From positions 1 through 20,066 of the IMG/VR virus record IMGVR_UViG_3300040751_000904: a stretch of 20,066 nt of DNA; one strand, 5' to 3'. The notes below the pieces were generated by a model. It was not told where the DNA came from and did no database searches. It worked only from the letters and a program-made list of their open reading frames with translations. Source of the stretch: a virus. Both the position numbers and the translations under genes were made by a program. This document shows positions 4,543-20,066 of the stretch, in pieces. Position 1 is the stretch's first letter; every line of letters starts with the position of its first letter.

Positions 4543-4548
4543 ATTTTA

Positions 4549-4554
4549 CTCCTT
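4549..4554 (-). promoter_or_regulatory. Strong ribosome binding site AAGGAG overlapping a stop codon
   Basis: The minus strand reads TAAGGAG, TAAAAT, ATG. The TAA stop of the 200-residue gene shares two bases with AAGGAG, six bases before the collar-fibre ATG. It is the best Shine-Dalgarno match in the window and implies coupled translation. Confidence 0.85.
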
Positions 4555-5155
4555 ATCCTGCTAAACTTTGTACACGCACTGTGTAGTCGATTTGAATCAA
4601 ACGGTTGAGCGACTTTTGTACTGGGTGGAAGATAACATGCGTAATTAATTTACCTGTGCCGCTTGTGCTATAACTACGTAATCCTAATTCATCAAAAACA
4701 TATGCATTGTCTGTTGAGCTAGCAGTGTCAAATGCATCCTGTCCGTTTGGCTCACCATAATCTAACAAGCAACTTACTACAATATCAGTATAGTTAGTAC
4801 CACTTACATGACGTGTTTCTAACTTGTTTCTTACTGGATCAGTATTGTTTACACTTCTGTCATCAACAACTTTAGTATAGGTTTGGTTGTACAGACTTGC
4901 ATTTGTTCCTGTGCTATTTGGTGTTAAGTACGTAATGATTCCAGTAGGATCAACACTAGTTCCGCCGTTACCAAAACTCATTTCGTATATAAAGCCTTGA
5001 CCGGCATTTGATAAACTTTCTGCTAAAGCAATACTCATATTTTCATAGTGAATTGCATTGCGCTTGTCAATATATACCTTTTGTGATTCAGGATCAAATA
5101 TCTTAATATGTCCTTGAATCAGTACCCCGTTTGTGTCTTGCATGTTATCGCTCAT
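4553..5155 (-). CDS. Conserved marine T4-like phage virion-type protein, 200 aa, function unknown
   Basis: A soluble 200-residue protein with no signal peptide or membrane segment. Notable segments are GHIKIFDPESQKVYIDKRNA (about 15-34), IHYENM (35-40), GFIYEMSFGNGGTSVDPTG (about 54-72), TYTKVVDD (92-99), VSCLLDYGEPNG (127-138), VFDELGL (153-159) and ITHVIFHPVQKSLNRLIQID (171-190). I recognise this as a family common in marine T4-like phages near tail and fibre genes, but that is memory of the pattern and no role is known to me. Its place between the giant structural gene and the collar fibre suggests a baseplate or fibre-attachment component. The start has AGGA eight bases upstream, and a NATAAATA box sits in the 21-bp gap and preceding stop region. 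Gene reality is very likely; the role is open. Confidence 0.85.
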   Translation of the reverse strand: MSDNMQDTNGVLIQGHIKIFDPESQKVYIDKRNAIHYENMSIALAESLSNAGQGFIYEMSFGNGGTSVDPTGIITYLTPNSTGTNASLYNQTYTKVVDDRSVNNTDPVRNKLETRHVSGTNYTDIVVSCLLDYGEPNGQDAFDTASSTDNAYVFDELGLRSYSTSGTGKLITHVIFHPVQKSLNRLIQIDYTVRVQSLAG

Positions 5156-5163
5156 TTAATTTT

Positions 5164-5167
5164 TCCT
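5164..5167 (-). promoter_or_regulatory. Ribosome binding site for the 200-aa protein
   Basis: The minus strand reads AGGA, then eight A/T bases, then ATG at 5155. The match is partial but normally spaced. Confidence 0.6.
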
Positions 5168-5173
5168 ATACTG

Positions 5174-5181
5174 TATTTATT
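5174..5181 (-). promoter_or_regulatory. Candidate T4-like late promoter box AATAAATA
   Basis: The minus strand reads AATAAATA across the TAA stop of the giant gene, ending 18 bases before the ATG of the 200-residue gene. It is one base from TATAAATA and fits NATAAATA. If active, it would let the 200-residue protein and the fibres be transcribed independently of the roughly 15-kb giant gene. Confidence 0.45.
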
Positions 5182-8100
5182 CAGGTAGCTCAGATGTAGC
5201 TGCACGTAAGAATCTTGCGATTCCATTTTCTGTATCTCCTAGTGTTGTACCTTCATTAGTCCAACTTTGGCCAACTTTCTTAACAACTGTTACTCGTGTA
5301 TCTTTTGCAGGAGCATCAAGTAATGTAATTTCATTTGTATCTGCGTCAAATGTAAAGTCTGCTGCAACTGTAGTATCGCCTTCTGAACTATCTAATGCTA
5401 CTGTAGGATCAAATACATCTAGTGGTGTTTTACGCAAGCGCACACCGCCTACAAACACTTCAATCTCATTAATCGATGCTACTGGATAGCCAATCTCAAA
5501 CGTTGCTGTAAGGCCGTCTGCGGTAGTGTTATACACTAGTGTTCTGTCTTTATACGGAACAGTTTTACTTATGTTTTGATCAAACACTTTTGTATCTGTT
5601 GCATGTGTATCTTTAACACCAGTGCCTAATGTACCTCTGCGTAGTTGACGTAGCGTATTTTCTTCTTTTACAAAGTATTCAATACGTTCGCCTTCGATAA
5701 AGATTACGCCTGGTAAGTTTTGTCCTTTGTTTGGTACTGACAATTCGCTTGCATTATCAAGTTCAATTCTTAAATCATAATAATTTAATGGCTGTGCTAA
5801 TTTAGCAGCAGATTTTTCAAGACGTTTAAAGTGCGTTCTGTTTAACATATCTTTGAACTGTCTGTATGCAAACTTAGGTGTACTTACAGGCGCAGTAAAG
5901 TGAATAATATCAATTACATCATTTGCTTCAGGATGCCTAACAAGTTGCACTTTTAACTTATCATCAGTTACATAATAATCTACACTTGGTGATAACAATT
6001 CGTTGTTAACACTTACCCATACGTATTGTGCATCAACAGCAGATTTACGCAGTTTAATTTCTCCAACTGTTAACCTGTTATATGTAATATAATCAACATC
6101 TTCAGGTATTAGCGTAGTTCTTGAAACAACGTCATAATTAATGCGTTCTAGGCCTAATAAGTTGTGATTGGTAAATTGTATTACTTCAACAACTGCTCCG
6201 TTAACAGGCGCAGTGTCTAAAGTAACTGTGGTTCCATTAATTCGGTAGTCGCCATCTGTAATTACATATATTTCAAGTAAGTCACCCGGAGCTCCTACTT
6301 CATCTGCTAAGGTAATACTACTATTTGCAATTTCAAAACGCCATTGTAGCGGAGTATTAATTGCAGTCCCATTTAGGAATACTTTAAGATCTGCAACATC
6401 TAAACTACCTGCTGGCATTTGGAATATCTCTAATGGATATTCTCTTTGACTGTTTTCAGGAATTGTATACTGGACATTGTATCCTGCATTTAATATTTTG
6501 TTATCAACTTTAACAATTACATTGTGCTCTGACGGAATAGCATACAGTGGCGCATTTGCTAATGTAAACACTGCATTAGTGCCGTTGCCAGTAAATGTAT
6601 CTTTAGTAATTTGACTATAATTAACTTGCTCATTTGCTGAGAATACAGTATAATTAATTATTGCGTCTTCAACGACTACTTCTTCAAATCTAATAACAGT
6701 CTTAGGTCCAGTTTCTGATTTAAATGCGACAACTGTTTGTTGCACACCATTAATACTTGCATATACACTTGCATTTGTTTCCCAATCAACAATTGTTTCG
6801 AATTCAGTAGTTGAACCATCGCCAACAAGCTGTCCAAAGTCTAATATATTTTGTGTTCCTTGTGCAACTGTTACAATATTGAGTTCTGCTCCTAGTGTTG
6901 CAGAATTTAATGTTACAGTGTTAGCTGCCCAGTTAATAGTATACTCAGTCTGCGGTAATATAACGTTAGCAACTTTTACAATAACTGCATCTTTGCTGCT
7001 TGGAGTAACACCCAAATCGTAAGTTAGTGCGCTATCCATAATATAGCTTTGACTGTTAATAACGCCTTGTCCTGCACTGTCTCTAGTGTAAACTTTAATG
7101 TCAAGAGTATCTAATACTTGTCCAGGAACAACTTCTTCAGGTCCTGCACTTGTAGTCGGAGTAACAAATCCGTCACCGTCTACAATAATTTCTTCTGCTG
7201 CAATGCCACGTGCTGATGTGTAAGCTAAATCGCCGCCGCTTAGTGCTGTATCATAACTCTCTAGATCAGGAATAACACTGCCGTCACTTGTAGTTTTTCT
7301 TACAACAAATACATCACCGTCATTAAGTTCAATACCTAAGTCTTGTACAAAAATTGTATCAGTTACGCCGTCCCCTGTAATACTATTTGTAATAGCGTTT
7401 ACATTAGTTGGTGTCCCTGCATCAAAGTTAGGATCGTCAATTCTTACACCGTTCTTATAAAGGTTATAAACAACACCATCCTCAAGCACTGCACTTAACG
7501 GTACTGCAATTGTTGAGCCATCTGCTGTAAATATTTCATCTTCAAATGTGTTATCAAACTCATCCCACTGATCAGTATACCATCCAGCTGTATCAAATCC
7601 AGCAGGGCCATCAAAGTCAAAACTACGTACTTCGACGCCGCCGTAATCTACACCAGTCATTAACTGTGCTAAGTCTTTACCGTACATTCCTGCAATTGGA
7701 TTGTATGCAAATTTAATTCTGTCTTCAGCATTTAACATACTTAGAGGAATATTATATTCAACACGTATTATTGCATTTAACTTTGGCGGAGTTGCAAATA
7801 ATATTTTGCCTTGTTCTCTTGCATAACTCTTGTCTAAGTTTTCAATATTTTCATATGTATATTTGCTACGCAACTGTAGAATATTGTCTACATATACACT
7901 AACTTTCTTAAGGGCTAGATCCATTGGCCATTCTAGGAAGAATCGATTTTCAAATCCTGTGCCTGTAAATGTTTCTGTTTTGGCTAATGTATCAAACGTA
8001 AATGTTCCGCTAGTTCTGTCAAACTTGATTTTAACCCTTGGGCTTCTTACAACGCCGTTTCCTAATATTGCTGTCGCTTTTGCAGGAGTTCCAGTTTCTA

Positions 8101-11100
8101 ATTGCGAACCTGAGATTACAACAGTCGGAGCACTAGTGTATCCGCTACCAGGATTAGTAACTTTAATACTAGTAATTTTTCCATATCCTAAATATGCCTT
8201 AGCAGTTGCACCTGTGCCGCCGCCGCCTATTAGAGTAACAATTGGTTCAAACGTAAATCCTGAGCCGCTGTTTCTAATTTTAACTTCATTTATTTTATAT
8301 CCAATATTATCTTTCCAATTTTTACGTGGATACACAGATGTGTCAAAGGTTTCATCAACAATTTCTCCATCTACTATTTTAGCGTTACTTGCTTCAAACG
8401 TCTTGTTAACATTGTTGTAGGTAGGCGGCAAATCAAAGTCACTAATAGAAGTATTAGTCGAGTCTATAGCTGTATACTGGCTTACAAATTCTCTTATCTT
8501 TGTTGAATATGGTTTAAATTCTTCAACAAACTTTTTATAGCTTGTTAGATTATCATTATTAAATGTTATATCTTGTTGACTTAGTGATTCTCTATTATGT
8601 TTTGCTTTTACAAAACTAGTTTTAAACATCCAATCAACTGACTGTTGCTCTGACATTACATAACGTAATGCAGCCATAAACAATTGATTGTATTCAGTTG
8701 CTAGTTCACCGACAAAAATATTATCTCTAATAGTTTCAAGTATAATTCTCAATTCAACACTTGGATTATTGTCGTAAAAATTGCTATCAAAACTACGGTT
8801 ATCAAATCCTACAGTATTCTTTGAATAATCATATAATAAATCTTTAAATTGTATAGTGCCGTTTTCTCGACCAATTGTATTATAATTAATTGTATAGTCT
8901 TCGCTGTCTTGATTGTCTATTTTTTGTAGAAGTAGCCAGCCGCCAGTACCTACATTTTCAATTTTAACAATGTCTCCTATATTGTCATCTAAACTCGGTA
9001 GTAAATAAGATCCCTGAATTGTATCAGTAATATTAGTGAACTGATTAAACCCGTCTGCATACCAATCTACATAGTCCCAATATAAATCTACATTATAGCT
9101 CTGTAGCTTTCTTCTATACCAAGATGATTCTGTTCCATCCCAAGAATACAATGCCCATTTGTTTTGTATATTGCTATCTGAATTAACTAATACAGTAAAC
9201 GGTCTAACAGTTATTGAAGTTGCACTGTTATACCCACTGCCCGCGTTAGTAATATCTACACTTATAATTTGACCTAAATTGTTAATATTTACATTAAATT
9301 CTGCACCTTTTCCTTCACCGTTAATTTTAAAACTAGGAGCAACTTTGTAGCCTCGGCCTGCATCTGTGATATTAACTCTAGAAATTCTGCCATTAGTAAT
9401 GATAGGAGTTAATATTGCTGGCGAAACTTTATTTGTACTAACAAACGTAAGTTCTGATAATGTGTCAATTGCAGTATCATATTCTTGAGATATTAGTGTA
9501 GGAACTTCGTCTTTAATACTTAATTTTGAAATATCATATTCGTCTACTATAAGATTTTCAGAAAGTTTTAGATTTATTCTCTCAATAGTTTGTTTCAGTG
9601 CTTCAAATCTATTAACAAACATACTTTGTCTTGGGCGATTTTGTACGCCATAACGATTTTTAACAGTAATTGTCGGATCTGGAACAATTCTATTATTATC
9701 ATCAAAGCCAATTAAACTATCAAACCATTTACGCTCAATATCAGGATCAGGTCTACTTGTGTTTAGTCCATCTGATATTAATTTATACTGACTATGTAAG
9801 TTTTGTGTTTTCTTTGGACCTGTTGAATATTTAATGTTTAGCACTAAATCATTATTATCAATAAAGGTATCAAAATTGTTAAGCACAAATTTATTGCTAG
9901 ATAGCAAACTTAAGAACGGATATCCTTGTGTTCTAGGATTTTCAATTAGTGCTGCAATATCACGTATACTTAGTCTTCTATTTTCCATTACAGGAACTGT
10001 AACTTTATTAACTACCCAGAAGTAATACTTATTACCAAATGTTTTGCTTACTTCATCGTATGTAATTTTAGTTGAATATTTTGTATCGCCATACAAACTT
10101 GTGCCACTGATCTTAGCTGCTATACCATCCGGCGTATCTGCAATGCTATCCCATATACTAGGGATAAAGTTACTCTCAACCCACTCAAATACATCAATTC
10201 TTGCTCCAGGTGTTAATTTGTTCCACGCATTTTTTTGGAAAGTTGTCGAACTTTGATATGCATATTCAAATTTTGCACTATTAATATTCCACCACACTTG
10301 TCCTGTATGCTTATCTGTCCATGCTCTATTAGGATCTACTAAGCTATCCGCTGTATTGCCTGTATTATACACTGCCGGATCGAATGGCGTTTTGAATGTA
10401 ATCTCTTGATCAGCAGGACCTGCTATTTTTCCTTGTACAGGATCAATATAATCAATATAACTCACAATTCTATTTTCACGCTTGTTGTATAAGAAAGCGC
10501 CTCGAATATTATCAACATCAACTGGAGTAATACCTTCGCTAATAACCTTCCATGCAAATGTATTTTTATTTTTTCTAAAGTCTAGTAATTGTCCCTTTGT
10601 ACTATTATTAACTTGATCTGGCATACCAATATAAACGTGGTTACCATTAGTATAAATGTTTTCGCCAAATGTAGTTTGAGTTAAAGGATATCTAAACTGT
10701 TCTGAATATATTAACGAGTTGTTAATTGTTTCGTAAACGTATACAACGCCTTTGTCAAGTTTTATGTTTGCAAAATTTGTAAATCCATTATCAAAAGTAG
10801 TGTTAACTGTTGATACGTTAGAAGCATTATCTAACACATACGACGATAATACAGGATTATCGTCGTCGTCGATTCCTACTTGAGGCTGCAACTCTAATAA
10901 TGTACTATGAACATCAAAAATAGTCGGTATTGTCTGATCACCGTTTAAGCTTGATACTGCTAAGTTATCTGTGCCAAAATCTAAACCAAACCCAAAACCT
11001 TCACTTTCCTCATTTTGTGGCGGTGTTAGTGTTTGATTAGCAATTCTAGTTATACCGTCAGTATCCAACAATCCAAATTTTCCATCTGCTTGTTGAGTAT

Positions 11101-14100
11101 AAATGTACACAACACCTTGATTAATTTTGTTAGTGTCTACTAACATTGAACTAACTGCAATTTGTGTGCCGTCAGGACTTAATGAAACTTTATCTGCCCA
11201 CGCTGTGACATTATCTGGTGCGGTAATTACTTGATCTAATTGAAACTTGTTACCAATTTCTCGATAAATTGCAATTTTTGTATTTACTGTACTATCTAAA
11301 TCTGCTTCATGTTGTTTACTTGTTACAATTAATACCTGTGCATCAGTACTAATATCAAAACTTTTACTAAATTCTAATATGTTTTCAGCTGGATCAAAAA
11401 CATCTTCGTTAAAGAAAGCATTTGCAGTTAAGTTTGGCAAGTATCCTAGGTAGTCAACATCTGTACTAATGCGTGTCCAAGAATTATTTGACACACTAGG
11501 AATTGTTGCTCCGACTGCTATATTAGTAGTAGCTTTCCATAGTTTGTTATCTTGTACAACAATACTGCCAGATTTGTAAGTATAACTATTATCAAAATCG
11601 CCACGATAATTTGAGTCTTTGCCATGCTGCCAGCTAATTTTGTTCCAATAAATTGGATCAAGAATAACATTTTGTGTCGCTGTTGTTGCTTTACGACAAA
11701 TGTAATAATCATCTTTATAGATAACAATATCACCTATTTGGTAAGCAGCTAATTGATATTCACCTTTAAAACTGTCTGTTGATTTAGTACCATGACGGAA
11801 AATTTCAATTGATCCAGGATGCACTCTGCGTTCTGTAGAATCGTCGCCTGGTAGAACAACACTGTCTGTGCCTACTAACAGTGTGTAATAGTTTCCAGTT
11901 TGTACAATTGCAACTTTGGATCCGAAATATCTATTAGCTGTGCGATATTCTGATATAAATGTATGTTGATATCTATAAGTTCCATCACGCAATCTTCTAT
12001 AGATTGCTACAGCACCTTCATTATTAAGTGATATTTCTGTTCCAAACTTGTCAGCAGGAATATTATAAATTTGTGTGTAATCTTTGTTTAAACTATAAGG
12101 TGGATTTGAAAAACGTTGTACACCGTCTTCTTGAGTTTCATCAAAGAACCAGTATTCTTCGTCAGTAATGGCAGGATTGTTAACTACTGGAAAATTAGTT
12201 GTACCAGCAGTAGGACCTGTTTCAAACACTATATCATTAGTAAATACAATTAACTTACCAACTAACGAATTGCCTAATACTATACTATTATTAATATCTG
12301 TTACAATTCCAATTGTACGATCAACATCAGTAACTCCGCCTCTAATATTAGGATTAACTGTATTATTATTACCAGACTTTCTGCGAATTTGGAATCGTCC
12401 AATATTTGATTGTTCTAGCCATTCTCCGCTTATTATTTTTAGATAAACTCTAATATTGTTAAATTTACGTTGCATAAACATTACTTCAGCACTACTAGTT
12501 GTAATACTAGTAAGTGCAAGGCCGCCTTGCCCGTCTCTTGGTATTTGAACATCTTCAACAATATCGCCTACTTGTGGTTCATATGCAAACCCTTCAAAAT
12601 CAAATTCTGTTAATTCGAAATCAATGTATCCATCCCATAAATCTACAATAGTTTGTTGTTTATTTAAAATATCATATGTAAAGCCTGCCCCTGCAACATC
12701 AACTACTCTGTTATCAAGATTATATAATCTAAATTCTGTAAGGGCGGGAACTGTTAAGTTGTCACTAAATGTCCTGCCTACTCGCGCTATCCATTTGTTA
12801 GTTAGCTGCTCTTCTTCGGTGCCGCCGATACCATCAGCACCAGATGGGTCTCCGCGATATGATAGATTACTAATAAAACTTGCTTGATTCTTATTAGTGA
12901 CATATGACCCAATTGCTCCTACAGTATCTTGGATATTATAATACTTATTTAGGTCTCTTAATTGTATTCCGGGGGTCAAAAGGTCAATATCTGTATTAGT
13001 TCTAATATCAGCATAAACTAATCCTCGACCTGGATCATAATATGTGCCGTTGTTTGAATATTCAAATCCGCTAATTAATGTGCCTGTTTCGTCTTTTTCG
13101 CCTGTGTTAATATACCAAAAGCCGTCAACTGCATCAGTTGTACTGTATGTTGATTCTTCAGTATAAAATCCTACAAAACTCAATTCGTTAATAAACAATT
13201 CGCCATTAATATTAAAGACACCGTTAGTATCCTTGACGTAAATAACTGCACTGTCTTTACGTGTTCCTACATAAAATACTTCAGCTGCGCCCGTATCAGT
13301 TGTAACAATGTCTCCTACTTCGGGCAGCGACACAAATGTATCAACAAAGAATATGTGATCAATTTTTTCGACAATTGTGTGACCTTGGCTTAACCATTCT
13401 GGAGTTATTTGAGTAATTTTATTATCAAACGGCAAGAATACATCTAATGTAGGATATGCATAACTACGTCTGTTCCAGAACAAATTAAGTGTATCACCTG
13501 CTGTTGTACCAATATACATATCTCTCGGCGCACGTACTAATAAATGAGTAATGTTACTGTTGTTTAAACCAGGATCGCCTGCAACTAATAAATTTAAAGT
13601 TGTACTATCAGCATCAGCAGAGGATGCAATATTTATATATGTATCAAATGTACTAAATGGTTGATTTGCAATTTCTGGCAGAATTTCTCTGTTTACTTTC
13701 CACAAACTTTCTCTATAACGTACAATATCATTTTTAATATATGTTGCATCAGGTTGGAAATCAAACGTGCTTAATCCTGTGCTAGCATCTGTTTTATATG
13801 CTAGTCGAGTCTTAACATTGCTTGCTTGCGGAATACCTACTACAAGATATTCACCATCTGGCGACACTGCAATACTTCTACCAAAGTCTGAATCAGTAAT
13901 ATCAAAATATTCTGCAGGACTATCTGTTAGTGTCCATTTTGAAGATGCTAAGTCATCTTCAAAAGACTCAGAGCTAGTATGTTGTTCTGTCGATATATAA
14001 TATTTTGGAATATTATTCGTAGTATATATTATTTTTGTATCTATTAGATAAAGAGTGTTTTCTTTCCAGCGCACTGCATCATCGAGGGTAATTTCTTGAT

Positions 14101-17100
14101 CTAGTATTAAATTGTTTTGTTCTCTAGTTCTGCGATATACCGAAACTTTACCGTTTAAGTCATTTGGCGATGATACAAAGACATTGTTATTATTTTTTGT
14201 TGCAGCAACACTATCACTAAACCCCTGATCAGTACTGTCATATAAAGACGGGTTAACAATATTTTGAGAATTTTCATAAACTGAAGTATTTTCTAATACG
14301 GCCCAATCACTGTTATAAGTGTCAATCCATAACTTTTGTTTACTATAAAGATCTTGACTTATTGCAGAATTAATTTCTAACACGCTACTGACTCGTATAT
14401 TTCTTAATTTAGAAACTGCAAACAGTTCGTCTTCAAAGTCTGTTATTTCGTTATCTAACGGAACTCTTATACGAGCAGTATTTAGATTAATACTATCAAC
14501 TTCATACAATCCATTTATTGAATACTGTGTTGCGCTGCGAATGCCAATATATTCTCCAACAGTGAATACACCGGTGGCCCATTTATCTAATGTTATTTCT
14601 ACTAACTGTAATCCGTTTACTGCTATTTCAGTTATATCAGAATTTATACTTAGCACATTTACATTAGCTCTGATTAGTTGCATAACTGTCCAAGATTTAT
14701 TGTCAGTATCAGTTATCCAAATTGTGTCGCCTAATCCAATTTGATTAGTGTCAACTGCTGAAAGATCAAGAAGATTATTAACAACATAATCAACGTCGTC
14801 CTCATTTGTATAACCAGAAGTTCTAATATATTCATTAGTTAATGTTTTAGTTGGAAGCGGTGCATGTGTATAATCTGCAGGTTTGTCAAAAACTTCATTT
14901 GGTAAAATTCTGTAAATCTTATCAAAGTTAGTTGCAGGCAATGTGTTTACAAGCTCAACTGCTTGGGGCGACTCTTGCATCTTTTCTTGTTGTAAGTTAT
15001 ACTCAACTTGCTGAATATCATCTACTGCACCATAGCGCCCAACTTGTATTGCCCATTCTTCATAAAAATCTAAGTTGTCAGCAGTATTGCCAAGCGCATC
15101 AAATAGTTTAGTAAACACATTCATTGTGCCTTTGTCTGCAATAGCACCACGATAGAATTTAAACTGACTTACATCGTCATTAATAATGTTAGCAAGGTAC
15201 TGACGTTTTTGATAACCTATTAAGTGTTGCGCCATCTTCTGCTGTTCAACATCAAAGCTGTCACTATCTAAATCATAAAAATCAGTAAACTGCGTAACTC
15301 TGTAATCAAAGTTAGTCATTAATTGAGATGTTGGTTTTTCGTTTAATTGGTACCAATTATTAGAATTAAAATTTTGCGAACCTGTAACATTAGCAGTTGC
15401 TACATAATAGTATTGTTTATATTTTACAATATCGCCAATTACATAATCTTTCCACTGTGACCAATCAGTAAATCTTGCATCATCGTATACAAATCCGGGA
15501 ATGTTTAATCCACCGTTCCAGTTATCTGATCTATATCCGTTAACACGTATTCTATCTTGTCTATATCCTGTTGTAGGATTGTAAATATTATCATTAAAGT
15601 CTGTTATATTATCTAATAATATAACATGTTCTTTTTGTACTAACGGCAGTGATGCATGATAAAGGCCTTCGTCTGTTCCAACAACTTCAATGCCAAAACT
15701 ATTTTGCTCTCTTAACAAACTATTAAATTCTGCATCTAAAAACAAACCGTCTGCTTTAAAAATGTTATAGCCGTAAAAATCATCTTTAATATTATCAACG
15801 ACATAGTAATCTCTAGCAAACTCTAATAGATTTGCGCCCGGGCTTATCGTAATTAGTGCACTTTCAGACCATCCTTGTGTTGTCCAAAACAAAAATTCTT
15901 TTGCGCTTTGACTCCAATTTTCAACAGTATTAGTGTCTTTAGATACTGCTTCAAAACTAAACCCAATTTCTTTTTGTCTTACACCGTAACCTAAAATAAA
16001 ATCAACAACTTCTTGTGCTGTGTTAATACGAGAACCGTACTGCAACTCTTTAAGTTGTGTAGTATCAAAATCTCTTTTAAACTTTGCAGTTTTTCCTCCA
16101 GTTAATGGCAATGCAGGAAGTTTAACTATATTATCAGTGTCAAATGTTCTACTACTAGTAAAAGAGTTAATAACTCTATAATATGCATTATTATGTAATA
16201 ATACTTCGCCACTTATATAAGATGTGTCGCTATCCCACTCAACTACTTTTTCAGAGATTCCGCCTACAGTTACAGTAGGTCCAGTTGATCCTGTATACGG
16301 TTCATAATATTCAAAATATGGCTTTTCTAAATTGTAGCCACGAATTACATATCCTAATTCAGTACGTTCTATAATAATGCCACTATAAATTGCTAATTCA
16401 TTGGGACTACTAGTATTTAAAAATACTTGATAGTTTTCTTGTGGTACAAAAATTCCGTCTTGGGTAAGTTCTTGTGTAGGTGAACGACTATCAAGTATTA
16501 AGTTAAACTTTTCTTTGCTAGTAAATCCTGCAATTTTAAGACCTATTTGATTAGTAATTGATTGTAGTTCTGTTTTATAACCATCATACACAGTTAATAT
16601 ATCGCTTGCAACGAGATTATAGATGTAGTTTACTAACCCTGATGTATTAGTACGTACAGATGATTCAAAAGTGTTAGGCAATTTTAAATCTTTAATAACA
16701 ATTGGCTTATTAGTTTCTGTATCAACCCACTGATTTGCTAAGTTTTTAGATGTTCTTGAAACATCAAACCCTAGTCCCATTGTTTTTGCAGGTTGATTTA
16801 ACGTCATTGCAGTTAATACAGCAAATGGATATTCTGAACTTCTGCGCCAGGCAGTTTCTACTGGAGAATAATCGCCAAATTTGAAATTTTTAGTTGAACT
16901 TGATAACTGAAAGTTTTTAACATATCTACTATCTAACGGAGATAACAGTTTACCAGTGCTATCAACTGGAATAAAGTTAGTTAAGCCAGGACGAACATAG
17001 TTTAAGTCAATTCTAGTATTAAGTGGATCGGCGATGCGGCCTTCTTCTAAATCTTTCCAAAGAACTAAATTGTCGCCAGTGTACGGAGCAGGACCATAAA

Positions 17101-20066
17101 CAGTATTCCACCATTTAGGCTTAGTTGTTAAACCTAACATTTCCCAAGGATGGCTATGCGGACGATCAGTATCAAACGCTTTTACATATATACTTCTCCA
17201 AAATCCAGGATTTTCATTATCGTTTGGTGAAGTTGTATCCGAATAATTAAATGACCAATTGTTGTTTCTATCATAAAATGTATTATTAGTGTATGATTGA
17301 TTATTTAAGTTTTGCTGTATCCACTGCGTAAAATTACCAAGCAGTGTATCATCAATTTCAGTTTTTGTAAATTCATTAATTCTAAATTCGCCGCCAATAA
17401 AACTATTAACATCCATTCTATCTGTAGAATATTCAGCTTTAATATTATTAAAAATTCTTTTTTCTAGTTCTAATAATAATTCGTCTCTAAAATCTTTGTA
17501 TGCTTTAACATAACTGCCATCATGACCTCTAATGAACGCAACACCAATCGGATATTCGTCTATTTCAATGTCGTCGTTGCCTGCAAGAGTTGCCCCTGTA
17601 GTTGGCATATAGAATAGTTTATTCATTCCTGTAAATGTGTATGACTTTGATGTTGCGCCAGGGCCTGCTGCACTCTTAGTAGTGTACACAGGATAAAACC
17701 AACCTCTAGTACCAGTTGCACTATCTTCGCCGTATATCTTAAACGGACCAGTGGTGTTTGGTTCGATACCTTGTACAGTATCGTCAATTGTTAATTCAGG
17801 ATAATACTTAGGATATAAGCCTAGCTTTGTTGGTGTTGGTGGTATAAAACTACCGTCAGTAGTTGCATACTCGTGTATTTCAATTATATCATTTTGTACT
17901 TGTCCAGCACTAATTGAAACATATCCTGGAATATTAAAATTATAATCTTTAATATGTGTTAATTGTGTACCATTTAAATATACTAACACACTAGTCGAAC
18001 TTAACTCTTTTAAATTAAAACTATTAGTAATAGGATAATCGTTTGTTCTTGCATCTAAAACAGTATATTCAATTTTATTAGATGCTCTAGATGCAGTCAT
18101 ATCAGAAAAGTAAAATGGTTGTGACTTTAATTTATCTTTGTTAATTTCTCGAAGTATAAGATCTACGTGAGTTTTAGTAACACCGTCGTATCCTAAATTA
18201 GAAGCAGTATCTAAAAATGTTTTTTTAAATCTAGAATATTCTTGTTTAGAATATTTTAGTGCTTTTATAATATTATAACTTTTATTAGTTACGTGATATA
18301 ACGGTAAATTAATTGGTCCACTATGTTTTACAAATCTTTTTCCATACTTATCTAAATCACCTAAATCTCGTAAATTACTTGCTCCGAGATAATTTCCTGT
18401 ATATCCCGGAATATCTTCTAACATACTATCAACGTGTTCTATTACTTCGCCAAGGGTGAATTGATTAATATCGTCATTTAACGGATTACGTTCTAAATTA
18501 TATGGAAATTCATAGTATCCGTTAGAATTTTTTATAGTCTTACTATCAGTCTTAATTTTAATAATATCATCTACATCTAAATCTTTATTAAATTTAATAA
18601 TTGCATCTGCTTCAGTTTTATCAATTGTATAATCTGTAGTATATAATTGCAATTTATTATTAACAAAAACAACTACTTTTAGATCATTAATACTACTTGA
18701 GTTGTTATATACGTCAATTTTAAAATTATTGTTTTGAATATCTGTTGCAGCATACTCTTTTATAACATACTGTTTACTAATTGTAGGAGTACTACTAAAT
18801 CCATTTACATATGAAAAGTTTGTAAGAGAAGTATACTTTTTTAAATACCCATTATTAATCTGCTGTGTAAACAATTCAGTGTCTGTTTGATATGTAAATA
18901 TATCGCTTAATAGATTAAAATCAAATACAATATCTCCAGAATTATTAATAGATTTATAACTTAGTGCAAACCCTAATTCAGTATCTACTGTACCTTCTCC
19001 TTCGGCATAAGAAAATAACTTAGTTCCTTTAAATGTAGTCGAACCGTAATATTTTTCATCACTAAAGCTATTTCCATTAACATCGCAAACAGCAAACATA
19101 GGTGGTTGATTGCGTGTTGTTTTTTCTTGTGCTAAAATCCATTGATTGTTATGATAATGATAACTTTTACCTGCATTTTTTACACCCTGTGTAACTAATA
19201 CAGTTTCAAGATCAACCGGAGTAGTATCAGCAGTTTCTATTAAACTAATCTGACGATTGTTTCCAATTTTAACAAATTTTACTTGATAAATTTTACCACT
19301 TACTAATAGATCTGTATCTGCTGTAAATAAGATACGCATATTGTCAGCTAAATCGATACCGTCAATGTTATATCCAGACTGTCCTTCAATGACACTGAAA
19401 ACATCAGTTGTAAATGTATCAATTAAATCAACATCTTTTTTAGCTACTGCTCCAAAATTATTTAATTTTAACCCTGCTTCAAATTCGATAATTGGCCGTT
19501 TTGCACGAGTTAATTCGTCAACGTTTATAGGTAATTGATTTAATTCAAAACTTTTTATAATTACATCTTTATGATGCCATCTGTTATAACGACTCCAGGC
19601 ATTTCTATCAAGCGATGCTCTGTTGACAACAATATAATCTTTTTCACTTGCATATGCACTTGCATCACTAAATGGCAAGGTATCAAAATTATCGCTGTCA
19701 AACGCTATTTGTTTATTACTACTATATGCTGCTGGAATAATTAAATCTTGATCTTTAATTAAAGTTATTTTGGTACCAACTCCTTCAACATACCAGTCGT
19801 TAGTTTCGTATTCAACAGGTAACACATCTCCCTGGAATCTAATTTTCATTCCGTTAGAAAGTTCAACACCGTTTGCACTTAGATACGTTTTCTTGCCTAA
19901 AATTTCTTCTTCTACATTAAGAAATGCATTTTCTTCAATGTCATAAATTCTAAATTGTCCACTTGTATCTACAGCATTTTTACTAATATAAAATAATCTG
20001 TCAGGTGCGTTAAACGGAATAGTAAATTCAATTGTGCCTTTTTCAATGTATGCAACTGCAACTTCT
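5177..20066 (-). CDS. Giant multidomain virion structural protein, at least 4,962 aa (N-terminus outside window)
   Basis: One frame with no stop for 14,890 bases. The in-frame ATG at 19849 has no ribosome binding site, and 72 open codons precede it without another ATG, so this is the C-terminal part of a larger protein of well over 500 kDa. Domain order: conserved segments (NRASLDRNAWSRYNRW near 19.6 kb, FGDYSPVETAWRRSSEYPF near 16.85 kb, HLIGYQKRQYLANIINDD near 15.2 kb); CBM5/12-like modules; an FG-GAP_2-like propeller interrupted by more such modules (14.2-10.5 kb); RQSMFVNRFEALKQ near 9.6 kb; GSGY repeats; DWMFKTSFVKAKH near 8.6 kb; about eight beta-fibre modules; and GERIEYFV...RQLRRGTLGTG near 5.65 kb. 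I found two cysteines and no catalytic motif. I recall similar giant proteins in marine and rhizobial T4-like phages, unnamed. It probably forms or decorates a long tail structure contacting the host surface, which is inference. Confidence 0.9.
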   Translation of the reverse strand, partial: EVAVAYIEKGTIEFTIPFNAPDRLFYISKNAVDTSGQFRIYDIEENAFLNVEEEILGKKTYLSANGVELSNGMKIRFQGDVLPVEYETNDWYVEGVGTKITLIKDQDLIIPAAYSSNKQIAFDSDNFDTLPFSDASAYASEKDYIVVNRASLDRNAWSRYNRWHHKDVIIKSFELNQLPINVDELTRAKRPIIEFEAGLKLNNFGAVAKKDVDLIDTFTTDVFSVIEGQSGYNIDGIDLADNMRILFTADTDLLVSGKIYQVKFVKIGNNRQISLIETADTTPVDLETVLVTQGVKNAGKSYHYHNNQWILAQEKTTRNQPPMFAVCDVNGNSFSDEKYYGSTTFKGTKLFSYAEGEGTVDTELGFALSYKSINNSGDIVFDFNLLSDIFTYQTDTELFTQQINNGYLKKYTSLTNFSYVNGFSSTPTISKQYVIKEYAATDIQNNNFKIDVYNNSSSINDLKVVVFVNNKLQLYTTDYTIDKTEADAIIKFNKDLDVDDIIKIKTDSKTIKNSNGYYEFPYNLERNPLNDDINQFTLGEVIEHVDSMLEDIPGYTGNYLGASNLRDLGDLDKYGKRFVKHSGPINLPLYHVTNKSYNIIKALKYSKQEYSRFKKTFLDTASNLGYDGVTKTHVDLILREINKDKLKSQPFYFSDMTASRASNKIEYTVLDARTNDYPITNSFNLKELSSTSVLVYLNGTQLTHIKDYNFNIPGYVSISAGQVQNDIIEIHEYATTDGSFIPPTPTKLGLYPKYYPELTIDDTVQGIEPNTTGPFKIYGEDSATGTRGWFYPVYTTKSAAGPGATSKSYTFTGMNKLFYMPTTGATLAGNDDIEIDEYPIGVAFIRGHDGSYVKAYKDFRDELLLELEKRIFNNIKAEYSTDRMDVNSFIGGEFRINEFTKTEIDDTLLGNFTQWIQQNLNNQSYTNNTFYDRNNNWSFNYSDTTSPNDNENPGFWRSIYVKAFDTDRPHSHPWEMLGLTTKPKWWNTVYGPAPYTGDNLVLWKDLEEGRIADPLNTRIDLNYVRPGLTNFIPVDSTGKLLSPLDSRYVKNFQLSSSTKNFKFGDYSPVETAWRRSSEYPFAVLTAMTLNQPAKTMGLGFDVSRTSKNLANQWVDTETNKPIVIKDLKLPNTFESSVRTNTSGLVNYIYNLVASDILTVYDGYKTELQSITNQIGLKIAGFTSKEKFNLILDSRSPTQELTQDGIFVPQENYQVFLNTSSPNELAIYSGIIIERTELGYVIRGYNLEKPYFEYYEPYTGSTGPTVTVGGISEKVVEWDSDTSYISGEVLLHNNAYYRVINSFTSSRTFDTDNIVKLPALPLTGGKTAKFKRDFDTTQLKELQYGSRINTAQEVVDFILGYGVRQKEIGFSFEAVSKDTNTVENWSQSAKEFLFWTTQGWSESALITISPGANLLEFARDYYVVDNIKDDFYGYNIFKADGLFLDAEFNSLLREQNSFGIEVVGTDEGLYHASLPLVQKEHVILLDNITDFNDNIYNPTTGYRQDRIRVNGYRSDNWNGGLNIPGFVYDDARFTDWSQWKDYVIGDIVKYKQYYYVATANVTGSQNFNSNNWYQLNEKPTSQLMTNFDYRVTQFTDFYDLDSDSFDVEQQKMAQHLIGYQKRQYLANIINDDVSQFKFYRGAIADKGTMNVFTKLFDALGNTADNLDFYEEWAIQVGRYGAVDDIQQVEYNLQQEKMQESPQAVELVNTLPATNFDKIYRILPNEVFDKPADYTHAPLPTKTLTNEYIRTSGYTNEDDVDYVVNNLLDLSAVDTNQIGLGDTIWITDTDNKSWTVMQLIRANVNVLSINSDITEIAVNGLQLVEITLDKWATGVFTVGEYIGIRSATQYSINGLYEVDSINLNTARIRVPLDNEITDFEDELFAVSKLRNIRVSSVLEINSAISQDLYSKQKLWIDTYNSDWAVLENTSVYENSQNIVNPSLYDSTDQGFSDSVAATKNNNNVFVSSPNDLNGKVSVYRRTREQNNLILDQEITLDDAVRWKENTLYLIDTKIIYTTNNIPKYYISTEQHTSSESFEDDLASSKWTLTDSPAEYFDITDSDFGRSIAVSPDGEYLVVGIPQASNVKTRLAYKTDASTGLSTFDFQPDATYIKNDIVRYRESLWKVNREILPEIANQPFSTFDTYINIASSADADSTTLNLLVAGDPGLNNSNITHLLVRAPRDMYIGTTAGDTLNLFWNRRSYAYPTLDVFLPFDNKITQITPEWLSQGHTIVEKIDHIFFVDTFVSLPEVGDIVTTDTGAAEVFYVGTRKDSAVIYVKDTNGVFNINGELFINELSFVGFYTEESTYSTTDAVDGFWYINTGEKDETGTLISGFEYSNNGTYYDPGRGLVYADIRTNTDIDLLTPGIQLRDLNKYYNIQDTVGAIGSYVTNKNQASFISNLSYRGDPSGADGIGGTEEEQLTNKWIARVGRTFSDNLTVPALTEFRLYNLDNRVVDVAGAGFTYDILNKQQTIVDLWDGYIDFELTEFDFEGFAYEPQVGDIVEDVQIPRDGQGGLALTSITTSSAEVMFMQRKFNNIRVYLKIISGEWLEQSNIGRFQIRRKSGNNNTVNPNIRGGVTDVDRTIGIVTDINNSIVLGNSLVGKLIVFTNDIVFETGPTAGTTNFPVVNNPAITDEEYWFFDETQEDGVQRFSNPPYSLNKDYTQIYNIPADKFGTEISLNNEGAVAIYRRLRDGTYRYQHTFISEYRTANRYFGSKVAIVQTGNYYTLLVGTDSVVLPGDDSTERRVHPGSIEIFRHGTKSTDSFKGEYQLAAYQIGDIVIYKDDYYICRKATTATQNVILDPIYWNKISWQHGKDSNYRGDFDNSYTYKSGSIVVQDNKLWKATTNIAVGATIPSVSNNSWTRISTDVDYLGYLPNLTANAFFNEDVFDPAENILEFSKSFDISTDAQVLIVTSKQHEADLDSTVNTKIAIYREIGNKFQLDQVITAPDNVTAWADKVSLSPDGTQIAVSSMLVDTNKINQGVVYIYTQQADGKFGLLDTDGITRIANQTLTPPQNEESEGFGFGLDFGTDNLAVSSLNGDQTIPTIFDVHSTLLELQPQVGIDDDDNPVLSSYVLDNASNVSTVNTTFDNGFTNFANIKLDKGVVYVYETINNSLIYSEQFRYPLTQTTFGENIYTNGNHVYIGMPDQVNNSTKGQLLDFRKNKNTFAWKVISEGITPVDVDNIRGAFLYNKRENRIVSYIDYIDPVQGKIAGPADQEITFKTPFDPAVYNTGNTADSLVDPNRAWTDKHTGQVWWNINSAKFEYAYQSSTTFQKNAWNKLTPGARIDVFEWVESNFIPSIWDSIADTPDGIAAKISGTSLYGDTKYSTKITYDEVSKTFGNKYYFWVVNKVTVPVMENRRLSIRDIAALIENPRTQGYPFLSLLSSNKFVLNNFDTFIDNNDLVLNIKYSTGPKKTQNLHSQYKLISDGLNTSRPDPDIERKWFDSLIGFDDNNRIVPDPTITVKNRYGVQNRPRQSMFVNRFEALKQTIERINLKLSENLIVDEYDISKLSIKDEVPTLISQEYDTAIDTLSELTFVSTNKVSPAILTPIITNGRISRVNITDAGRGYKVAPSFKINGEGKGAEFNVNINNLGQIISVDITNAGSGYNSATSITVRPFTVLVNSDSNIQNKWALYSWDGTESSWYRRKLQSYNVDLYWDYVDWYADGFNQFTNITDTIQGSYLLPSLDDNIGDIVKIENVGTGGWLLLQKIDNQDSEDYTINYNTIGRENGTIQFKDLLYDYSKNTVGFDNRSFDSNFYDNNPSVELRIILETIRDNIFVGELATEYNQLFMAALRYVMSEQQSVDWMFKTSFVKAKHNRESLSQQDITFNNDNLTSYKKFVEEFKPYSTKIREFVSQYTAIDSTNTSISDFDLPPTYNNVNKTFEASNAKIVDGEIVDETFDTSVYPRKNWKDNIGYKINEVKIRNSGSGFTFEPIVTLIGGGGTGATAKAYLGYGKITSIKVTNPGSGYTSAPTVVISGSQLETGTPAKATAILGNGVVRSPRVKIKFDRTSGTFTFDTLAKTETFTGTGFENRFFLEWPMDLALKKVSVYVDNILQLRSKYTYENIENLDKSYAREQGKILFATPPKLNAIIRVEYNIPLSMLNAEDRIKFAYNPIAGMYGKDLAQLMTGVDYGGVEVRSFDFDGPAGFDTAGWYTDQWDEFDNTFEDEIFTADGSTIAVPLSAVLEDGVVYNLYKNGVRIDDPNFDAGTPTNVNAITNSITGDGVTDTIFVQDLGIELNDGDVFVVRKTTSDGSVIPDLESYDTALSGGDLAYTSARGIAAEEIIVDGDGFVTPTTSAGPEEVVPGQVLDTLDIKVYTRDSAGQGVINSQSYIMDSALTYDLGVTPSSKDAVIVKVANVILPQTEYTINWAANTVTLNSATLGAELNIVTVAQGTQNILDFGQLVGDGSTTEFETIVDWETNASVYASINGVQQTVVAFKSETGPKTVIRFEEVVVEDAIINYTVFSANEQVNYSQITKDTFTGNGTNAVFTLANAPLYAIPSEHNVIVKVDNKILNAGYNVQYTIPENSQREYPLEIFQMPAGSLDVADLKVFLNGTAINTPLQWRFEIANSSITLADEVGAPGDLLEIYVITDGDYRINGTTVTLDTAPVNGAVVEVIQFTNHNLLGLERINYDVVSRTTLIPEDVDYITYNRLTVGEIKLRKSAVDAQYVWVSVNNELLSPSVDYYVTDDKLKVQLVRHPEANDVIDIIHFTAPVSTPKFAYRQFKDMLNRTHFKRLEKSAAKLAQPLNYYDLRIELDNASELSVPNKGQNLPGVIFIEGERIEYFVKEENTLRQLRRGTLGTGVKDTHATDTKVFDQNISKTVPYKDRTLVYNTTADGLTATFEIGYPVASINEIEVFVGGVRLRKTPLDVFDPTVALDSSEGDTTVAADFTFDADTNEITLLDAPAKDTRVTVVKKVGQSWTNEGTTLGDTENGIARFLRAATSELPE
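5265..7990 (-). repeat. C-terminal array of about eight beta-sandwich fibre modules
   Basis: Diverged modules of roughly 60-100 residues share the pattern F-T-G-x-G...F.L, then V.V.VNG..L....Y, then ITL..AP..GA.V.V. Clear members start with FTGTGFENRFFL (7745-7990), FTADGSTIAVPL (7430-7540), ITGDGVTDTIFV (7280-7390), LTYDLGVTP (6840-7045), LVGDGSTTEFE (6640-6835), FTGNGTNAVFTL (6160-6600, probably two fused units), one at 5900-6130, and the terminal TADGLTATFEIGYP unit (5265-5560). Two related modules lie far upstream at about 17800-18090 (VLVYLNGTQL) and 18535-18800 (VVVFVNNKLQL). The array is a likely rod or shaft, with boundaries approximate. Confidence 0.7.
8030..8300 (-). repeat. GSGY repeat pair A
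   Basis: Two tandem protein repeats: INEVKIRNSGSGFTFEPIVT followed by GGGGTGATAKA, then KITSIKVTNPGSGYTSAPTV followed by a similar Gly/Ala-rich strand. The pattern is [VI]-x-[VI]-x-N-x-G-S-G-[YF]-x-x-x-P, which I associate with phage structural proteins as a beta-rich spacer. Confidence 0.75.
9190..9390 (-). repeat. GSGY repeat pair B
   Basis: Two repeats of the same type about 0.9 kb upstream of pair A: RVNITDAGRGYKVAPSFKIN, then IISVDITNAGSGYNSATSIT. Pairs A and B flank the DWMFKTSF segment. Confidence 0.72.
10215..10310 (-). other. GxxW motif shared between the giant protein and the fibre N-domains
   Basis: The giant protein reads HTGQVWWNINSAKFEYAY followed by a downstream Trp, closely resembling GQTWWDSADQRLKVY and GQVWFDSGTSKLKFY of the fibre genes. 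It lies directly after the last propeller blade region. Confidence 0.55.
11470..11615 (-). other. CBM5/12-like aromatic module 6
   Basis: Between propeller blades. GDFDNSYTYKSGSIVVQDNK is followed by LWKATTN and a closing NNSWTRIS. The order Y..GS.V......LWKA......W is that of small chitin/cellulose-binding modules. Confidence 0.6.
11625..11765 (-). other. CBM5/12-like aromatic module 5
   Basis: YQLAAYQIGDIVIYKDDYYI, then CRKATTA, closing with IYWNKISW. It directly precedes module 6 in the protein. It contains one of the only two cysteines seen in the giant protein. Confidence 0.62.
12060..13635 (-). other. 1.6-kb insertion inside the propeller
   Basis: About 525 residues between blades 2 and 3. 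They include two segments of the same style, PEVGDIVTTDTGAAEVFYVG (near 13.3 kb) and PQVGDIVEDVQIPRDGQGG (near 12.55 kb), each followed by an alternating hydrophobic strand pattern (VIYVKDTNG and IRVYLKIISGEW). Between them is VDGFWYINTGE...YYDPGRGLVY. I cannot name a fold. It may be a separate beta domain projecting from the ring. Confidence 0.5.
13635..13770 (-). other. CBM5/12-like aromatic module 4
   Basis: FDFQPDATYIKNDIVRYRES, then LWKVNRE and PFSTFD. The Y..ND.VRY...LW core is clear; the terminal Trp is absent. It follows propeller blade 2. Confidence 0.52.
13925..14075 (-). other. CBM5/12-like aromatic module 3
   Basis: RWKENTLYLIDTKIIYTTNN, then YYISTEQHTSS, then SSKWTLTDSP. It lies between propeller blades 1 and 2. 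The core is W...T.Y......I.Y......YYI......W. Confidence 0.52.
15335..15475 (-). other. CBM5/12-like aromatic module 2
   Basis: DWSQWKDYVIGDIVKYKQYY, then YVATANV, closing with NNWYQLNE. It is the best match among the six modules to the W...Y..GD.V.Y...YY.A......W pattern. Confidence 0.68.
16110..16240 (-). other. CBM5/12-like aromatic module 1
   Basis: VVEWDSDTSYISGEVLLHNN, then AYYRVINSF. It starts with the W.....Y..G.V......YYRV core but lacks a clear closing Trp, so it may be degenerate. Confidence 0.55.

Follow-up and report, generated by a model that had tools for sequence, protein, structure and literature searches.

Six CBM5/12-like modules in a giant baseplate-region protein of an environmental jumbo-type phage

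Six modules related to carbohydrate-binding module (CBM) families 5 and 12 are carried by one giant protein encoded on the minus strand of the virus record IMGVR_UViG_3300040751_000904, a stretch of 20,066 bases that is called the window below. The modules (M1-M6) are CBM5/12 kin and a real, well-conserved feature, and the carrier is, by gene order, a tail baseplate protein of an environmental jumbo-type phage. As judged from alignment, the modules appear to have kept the CBM5/12 fold and lost its known ligand site, and they may serve mostly as docking or joint domains. A preliminary description of the window had reported at least six such modules at 11470-16240 in one protein without a catalytic domain, and had taken their shared aromatic residues as a sign of glycan binding. 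That reading is partly supported: the CBM5/12 kinship, the six copies in one protein, the lack of an enzyme and, for M1 and M2, the fold are all borne out, whereas the step from shared aromatics to glycan binding is not supported in the form in which it was put. Papers are cited here by PMC number, from excerpts of their text.

Six modules in one giant protein

The giant protein and its modules lie as follows.

5177..20065, minus strand: giant baseplate-region protein, one open frame of 4,962 amino acids (aa), 5' end open, beyond the window
16112..16246, minus strand: M1, CBM5/12-like (aa 1274-1318; Pfam 19.3 bits; ChiA1 1ED7 at E 7.1e-7)
15344..15484, minus strand: M2, CBM5/12-like (aa 1528-1574; Pfam 10.6 bits; matched by the M1 and M5 profiles)
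13919..14080, minus strand: M3, CBM5/12-like (aa 1996-2049; M1 profile 9.0 bits; missed by Pfam)
13628..13768, minus strand: M4, CBM5/12-like, without the final Trp (aa 2100-2146; Pfam 15.4 bits)
11630..11776, minus strand: M5, CBM5/12-like (aa 2764-2812; Pfam 18.9 bits)
11462..11614, minus strand: M6, CBM5/12-like (aa 2818-2868; Pfam 13.9 bits; matched by the M4 profile)

There are exactly six modules inside the one frame, and their outer bounds, 11462-16246, agree with those of the preliminary description. In a Pfam-A scan at E up to 1, the giant protein matched two families only: CBM_5_12 (PF02839), which passed its cut-off (35.7 vs 26.2 bits), and FG-GAP_2, which stayed below it (19.3 vs 23 bits). 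No enzyme family was found in that scan. Searched singly, five modules scored 10.6-19.3 bits against CBM_5_12, all below the cut-off, and M3 gave no match to it. A profile made from the orthologs of each module was then compared with the other modules and with 101 decoys (100 shuffles and the reversed protein). None of the 101 decoys reached the scores of M1 against M2 (14.8 bits), M1 against M3 (9.0), M2 against M5 (14.4), M5 against M2 (21.2) and M4 against M6 (17.0); many other pairs were weak or unmatched, for example M5 against M6 at -3.5 bits with 72 decoys above it. A combined profile, trained on these same modules, gave six places at 31-60 bits in the window frames of at least 60 aa, and beyond them nothing above 1.5 bits.

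Which known proteins do these segments resemble? Among 177,635 PDB sequences, the six-module window profile (A4) matched Anabaena Cis13 (E 0.0042), the deacetylase DA1 (0.0084) and ChiA1 (0.018), and the chitinases 4TX8 and 2RTS as well. The best match of the M1 profile was the chitin-binding domain of ChiA1 (1ED7, E as listed above), followed mostly by chitin-active enzymes. The M2 profile found no CBM even with E allowed up to 10, its best match (0.39) being to an unrelated protein, although the predicted structure of M2 matches the fold.

Relatives and the gain or loss of modules

The giant protein matches phrog_10938 (virion structural protein) at E 7e-266. Close relatives are encoded on 49 virus contigs and distant ones in 57 phage records, mostly of jumbo phages; full-length relatives measure about 5,050-5,270 codons from stop to stop. 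Among the sequences that span each place, the window included, M1 is present in 51/55, M2 in 48/55, M3 in 3/53, M4 in 46/53, M5 in 38/52 and M6 in 46/52. M2 and M4 are mostly conserved at or above the median stretch of the protein, and the identity of M1 and M6 is below average.

Two modules came or went as units. Almost all of M3 is held by a clean insertion of 54 aa (aa 1999-2052), common to 2 of 45 close relatives, and the flanking sequence runs on unbroken in relatives without M3. It is the sole insertion of at least 25 aa in the window protein compared with the majority of close relatives. A phmmer search for its donor over all collected loci gave its two orthologs only. M5 is missing as a unit in one clade (contigs L040 and L047), where the alignment has a gap.

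Across homologs the number of modules runs from 0 to 6. The phrog_10938-type giant virion proteins of the phages PA5oct (gp355), RaK2 (gp465), PBECO4 (gp538), CBB (gp236), Atu_ph07 (gp180) and SCTP-2 (gp140) are homologous to the window protein in several long stretches, with 23-29% identity in the full alignment. They differ from it in having 0-2 modules rather than six: none of the six in RaK2, PBECO4 and CBB, M1 only in PA5oct and Atu_ph07, and two in SCTP-2.

Predicted folds of the modules and their surroundings

Two regions, aa 1130-1760 and aa 1945-3144, were modelled, with 22 and 23 sequences in their alignments. The first model is poor overall, its mean predicted local distance difference test score (pLDDT) being 48.5, but M1 at about 67-85 and M2 at about 80-88 rise above the rest. 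The L-shaped small beta fold was found in the models of both. Foldseek matched CBM12 of chitin deacetylases with probability 1.00 and a root-mean-square deviation (rmsd) of 1.8 over 44 residues; the E-values of these matches are 0.06 and worse because the module is a small part of the model. Against 1ED7 of ChiA1 the template modelling (TM) score was 0.74 by target length. VIA-align superposed predicted M1 on COD (3WX7) with rmsd 1.3 over 45 residues and predicted M2 on the phage 7-7-1 fibre (9RKV_M) with rmsd 1.3 over 46 residues, and both lie within 1.3-1.5 A of several CBM5/12 members; the VIA Z values of 5-7 for M1 and M2 are on their own not telling.

The second model covers one further feature.

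10634..14233, minus strand: modelled stretch, putative integrin-alpha-like beta-propeller (aa 1945-3144), with M3-M6 among the first four blades

Foldseek and VIA-align matched this model, whose mean pLDDT is no higher than 61.3, to integrin-alpha headpieces with Z of 20-21 over 324-343 residues, and to WD40 propellers with equal Z; confidence in the modelled M3 and M5 is low. Blade motifs found by regular expression lie near aa 1949, 2061, 2713, 2899, 3024 and 3133. With the blade starts taken from these motifs, M3 would fall between blades 1 and 2, M4 in or after blade 2, and M5 and M6 between blades 3 and 4. Thus M3-M6 are predicted to sit among the blades of a beta-propeller.

Ligand-site and core residues

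Do the modules keep the site by which CBM5 binds its ligand? In CjCBM5, Y282, W283 and Y296 form the binding surface, with Y282-W283 almost fully conserved, and Y265 and W299 are core residues (PMC8449059). The Tyr of Y..GD.V and the final Trp of the window modules, on which the suggestion of glycan binding had been built, align with core Y265 and W299. The core Tyr is kept in all six modules, and the final Trp in M2, M3, M5 and M6 (absent from M1 and M4). The place of Y282-W283 was read by offset from the core Tyr, shifted in M3 for its insertion; it holds SF, NV, QH, EI, AT and NI in M1 to M6, with no Tyr-Trp pair in any of the six. At the place of the chitin-binding Trp of ChiA1 (W687), the residue is Phe in M1 (51/51), M2 (48/48), M3 (3/3) and M4 (46/46), mostly Val or Ile in M5 (Phe 2/46), and never aromatic in the 36 sequences of M6, mostly V or I; this place was taken from the alignment, with M4 and M6 positioned by eye. 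Neither the exposed triad nor the ChiA1 Trp was found in any module by alignment and offset.

The conserved aromatics would thus be mainly core residues, and since the exposed pair is absent and the ChiA1 Trp replaced, avid glycan binding is no more than a possibility. The preliminary description was to fall if no CBM similarity existed and the conserved aromatics were buried; the first is clearly false, while the second, by alignment, seems largely true. Compared with known CBM5/12 members (ChiA1 1ED7, CjCBM5, CBM12 of the DA1 and COD deacetylases), the window modules are alike in profile score, in core Tyr (6/6), in final Trp (4/6) and in the fold of M1 and M2. They are unlike in setting: the known members flank a catalytic domain, whereas the window modules, their ligand aromatics lost, are dispersed in a giant virion protein without an enzyme.

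Place in the gene order of the baseplate wedge

The window ends before the start of the giant gene, and the gene order at that point is known from relatives. On the related contigs L010 and L030, gp25 (phrog_261, phrog_43) is followed by gp6 (phrog_10646, phrog_219) and then by the giant gene, whose start the gp6 gene overlaps by one base. In PA5oct, RaK2, PBECO4, CBB and Atu_ph07 a baseplate wedge gene, gp6-like, stands directly before the giant gene, and the giant proteins are annotated as virion proteins, that of PA5oct with the note ESI-MS/MS (electrospray ionisation tandem mass spectrometry). The genes around the SCTP-2 relative are unlabelled. The place after gp6 is that of gene 7 in T4 and in P-SSM2, where a 5,195-aa protein annotated as gp7 (PSSM2_111) lies between gp6 and gp8 and has one CBM5/12 match. 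By gene order, the giant protein holds the position of the baseplate wedge protein gp7.

Is it also gp7 by sequence? Against T4 gp7, hhalign gave a probability of 0.1 for both the full alignment and aa 1130-1760. A gp7-core profile of nine sequences (P-SSM2, seven further phages and T4) did no better than on shuffles, and the matches that blastp of P-SSM2 gp7 gave in the window protein were all weak, with E 0.002 at best, and fell mostly in GSGY-type repeats. Nor did T4 gp7 appear among the structures matched by the low-confidence model, an absence that carries no weight. Since sequence kinship with gp7 was sought and not established, we call the protein a gp7-position protein only. The giant gp7 proteins of cyanophages (PSSM2_111 of P-SSM2, gp7 of P-SSM4) are like it in size class, and that of P-SSM2 also in gene place and in its CBM5/12 match; they show no convincing sequence kinship to it outside short repeats.

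Repeats of the GSGY.SAPTV type lie at about 8130-9540 of the window (aa 3510-3980) and are seemingly common to P-SSM2 gp7. A match to phrog_460 'head closure' (Hc2) at aa 3870-3990 is not taken to mark a neck protein, and these repeats are probably its cause.

Neighbouring genes and further CBM5/12 matches

Downstream of the giant gene lies the gene for a 200-aa protein, and beyond it three more whose products match tail or virion phrogs; one of these has a Collar domain.

4553..5155, minus strand: 200-aa protein, next gene, phrog_11259 (unknown function)
2488..4542, minus strand: tail-fibre-like protein with Collar domain (PF07484 E 3.6e-14; tail phrogs)

By eye, an N-terminal stretch like YGE..NENFL.LLENFSN..GQ.W.DS is common to the proteins at 1-537, 576-2486 and 2488-4542, which suggests that the three are paralogous fibre or pin proteins. 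Sought as a clue to the host, a psbA/psbD-type gene (PF00124) was found in none of 16 related contigs, which are fragments.

CBM5/12 matches at E up to 0.01 occur in 24 of the 27 records searched. Contig L062, the same contig as L034, encodes two fibre-like proteins (2547-7472 and 7506-11501), in each of which about eight CBM5/12-like modules stand in tandem at the N-terminus, and tail fibre proteins of P-SSM2, S-SSM7 and pelagiphage Mosig have similar arrays that start at their N-terminus or close to it. The gp6-like wedge proteins of Vibrio phage 2.275 (L060:6605-10468) and Atu_ph07 (L055:8802-12398) have CBM5/12 matches too, the former being annotated as carbohydrate-binding module family 5/12. 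In PA5oct a second protein (a 1,015-codon frame) has three matches at NC_071039 204801-205217, far from the baseplate genes. A 443-aa protein with CBM5/12-like motifs is encoded at L063:2887-4218, among genes that by eye resemble those of glycosyltransferases and of a radical-SAM enzyme; frames of 443-447 aa with one CBM5/12 match occur in six of the contigs so searched.

Discussion

What might such modules do in a baseplate protein? VIA-align found the same fold in the contractile machines of Milano (8FQC, in baseplate chains), phage 7-7-1 (9RKV), the Anabaena contractile injection system (7B5H) and KP1 (9F4A), and in residues 134-184 of the A-1(L) fibre chain 8KEC_a, which by its length is taken as gp33; T4 capsid chains were also among the matches. 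The joint domain of A-1(L) gp33 (111-215), inside which the matched residues fall, binds the wedge periphery (PMC10966104), and in the T4 capsid protein a chitin-binding-like insertion domain bridges neighbours (PMC3185693). The gp33 joint domain, the fibre N-termini of Milano and 7-7-1 and Anabaena Cis13 are like the window modules in that each is a small domain of a contractile tail and shares the predicted fold; they are unlike them in standing on fibres or spikes in one or two copies, and among them the cited excerpts print a joint function for gp33 only.

Because of these precedents we place docking first. A giant baseplate protein, encoded right after gp25 and gp6 in the wedge gp7 place of T4 and cyanophages, would have gained six CBM5/12-fold modules, two (M1 and M2) in the first half and four (M3-M6) in loops among the blades of the predicted integrin-like propeller. 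For the most part the modules would act as small joints or docking domains by which tail fibres, adjacent baseplate proteins or the modules themselves are held in place, and glycan contact, if any, would be weak and secondary. As a whole, this explanation is held tentatively, at a little short of an even chance. A docking role seems at least as likely as glycan binding, and we would slightly favour a joint.

The strongest competitor, which comes from the preliminary description, sees the modules as accessory adhesins, whose many weak sites, in six or more copies per baseplate, would give avid and reversible binding to a GlcNAc (N-acetylglucosamine)-containing or other glycan of the envelope or capsule before the fibres lock. 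Several observations weigh against docking, and some of them also suit an adhesin. In Vp4, the wedge protein Gp119 with its CBM folds binds host cells and a homolog without CBMs does not (PMC11406892), an experimental precedent that makes glycan binding by baseplate CBMs possible; of the two CBMs in the AlgoCIS baseplate protein Alg11, one keeps a conserved sugar site (PMC8894135). Both proteins resemble the window protein in being wedge-type or baseplate proteins with CBM folds as part of the chain, and differ in CBM family (CBM16-, xylanase- and CBM27-like) and in smaller size. The Phe at the ChiA1 Trp place, invariant in M1, M2 and M4 and found throughout M3, could be a kept sugar-stacking residue. 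Gain and loss of whole modules (M3, M5) and the below-average identity of M1 and M6 would fit an adhesive equally well. In Milano, 7-7-1 and KP1 a docking role would be read from the position of the fold alone, and kinship to T4 gp7 or P-SSM2 gp7, though sought, was not established. An adhesin would further accord with the function of the CBM5/12 family, with evolved Dit proteins that reportedly carry CBMs in siphophages, and with the tandem arrays that fibre proteins of this phage group bear. However, none of the six modules has the exposed Tyr-Trp pair of CBM5, and in all six the ChiA1 Trp is replaced, by aliphatic residues in M5 and M6. What is more, a baseplate protein is where the modules stand, and in fibre proteins the arrays lie at the N-terminus, the end towards the baseplate. 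We regard the adhesin as possible, though less likely than not.

Another explanation is that the modules are spacers or selfish inserts, small and stable domains that recombination has spread between phage structural genes and that surface loops can accommodate without any particular partner. The clean insertion of M3 in so few relatives, the module counts from 0 to 6 and the place of modules at loops of the predicted propeller would agree with this. Yet 46-51 homologs keep M1, M2, M4 and M6 at the same places, their core residues nearly invariant; conservation of M2 and M4 is mostly no lower than that of the median stretch; and no M3 donor was found among the loci collected. We consider this explanation unlikely. 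That short aromatic motifs fell into line by chance in a protein rich in Tyr and Trp, a view for which one could cite that no single module passes the Pfam cut-off, is rejected as barely credible by the whole-protein Pfam score, the decoy test, the PDB search in which the M1 profile finds ChiA1 first at 7e-7, the fold match and the unit-wise insertions and deletions.

Among the titles listed in literature searches on CBM modules of phage baseplates, none concerned the window protein, and the nearest were Vp4/Deep-Blue and AlgoCIS. Since CBMs on myophage wedges are already known, the window case is a variant. Its interest lies partly in naming: the PAC2 copy of the giant protein is already called a chitin-binding type-3 domain-containing protein, and such names, like CBM5/12 for the Vibrio phage gp6-like gene, invite guesses about host range. 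A fold kept without its ligand site, together with the same fold near fibre roots in solved tails, offers a concrete and testable alternative, and the clean insertion M3 provides a natural pair with and without the module. It is conceivable, though on balance we lean against it, that contractile tails have adopted the CBM5/12 fold as a general protein-protein joint, pasted singly into baseplate and fibre-root proteins with the core kept and the chitin site discarded. If that were true, many phage proteins named chitin-binding would be misnamed.

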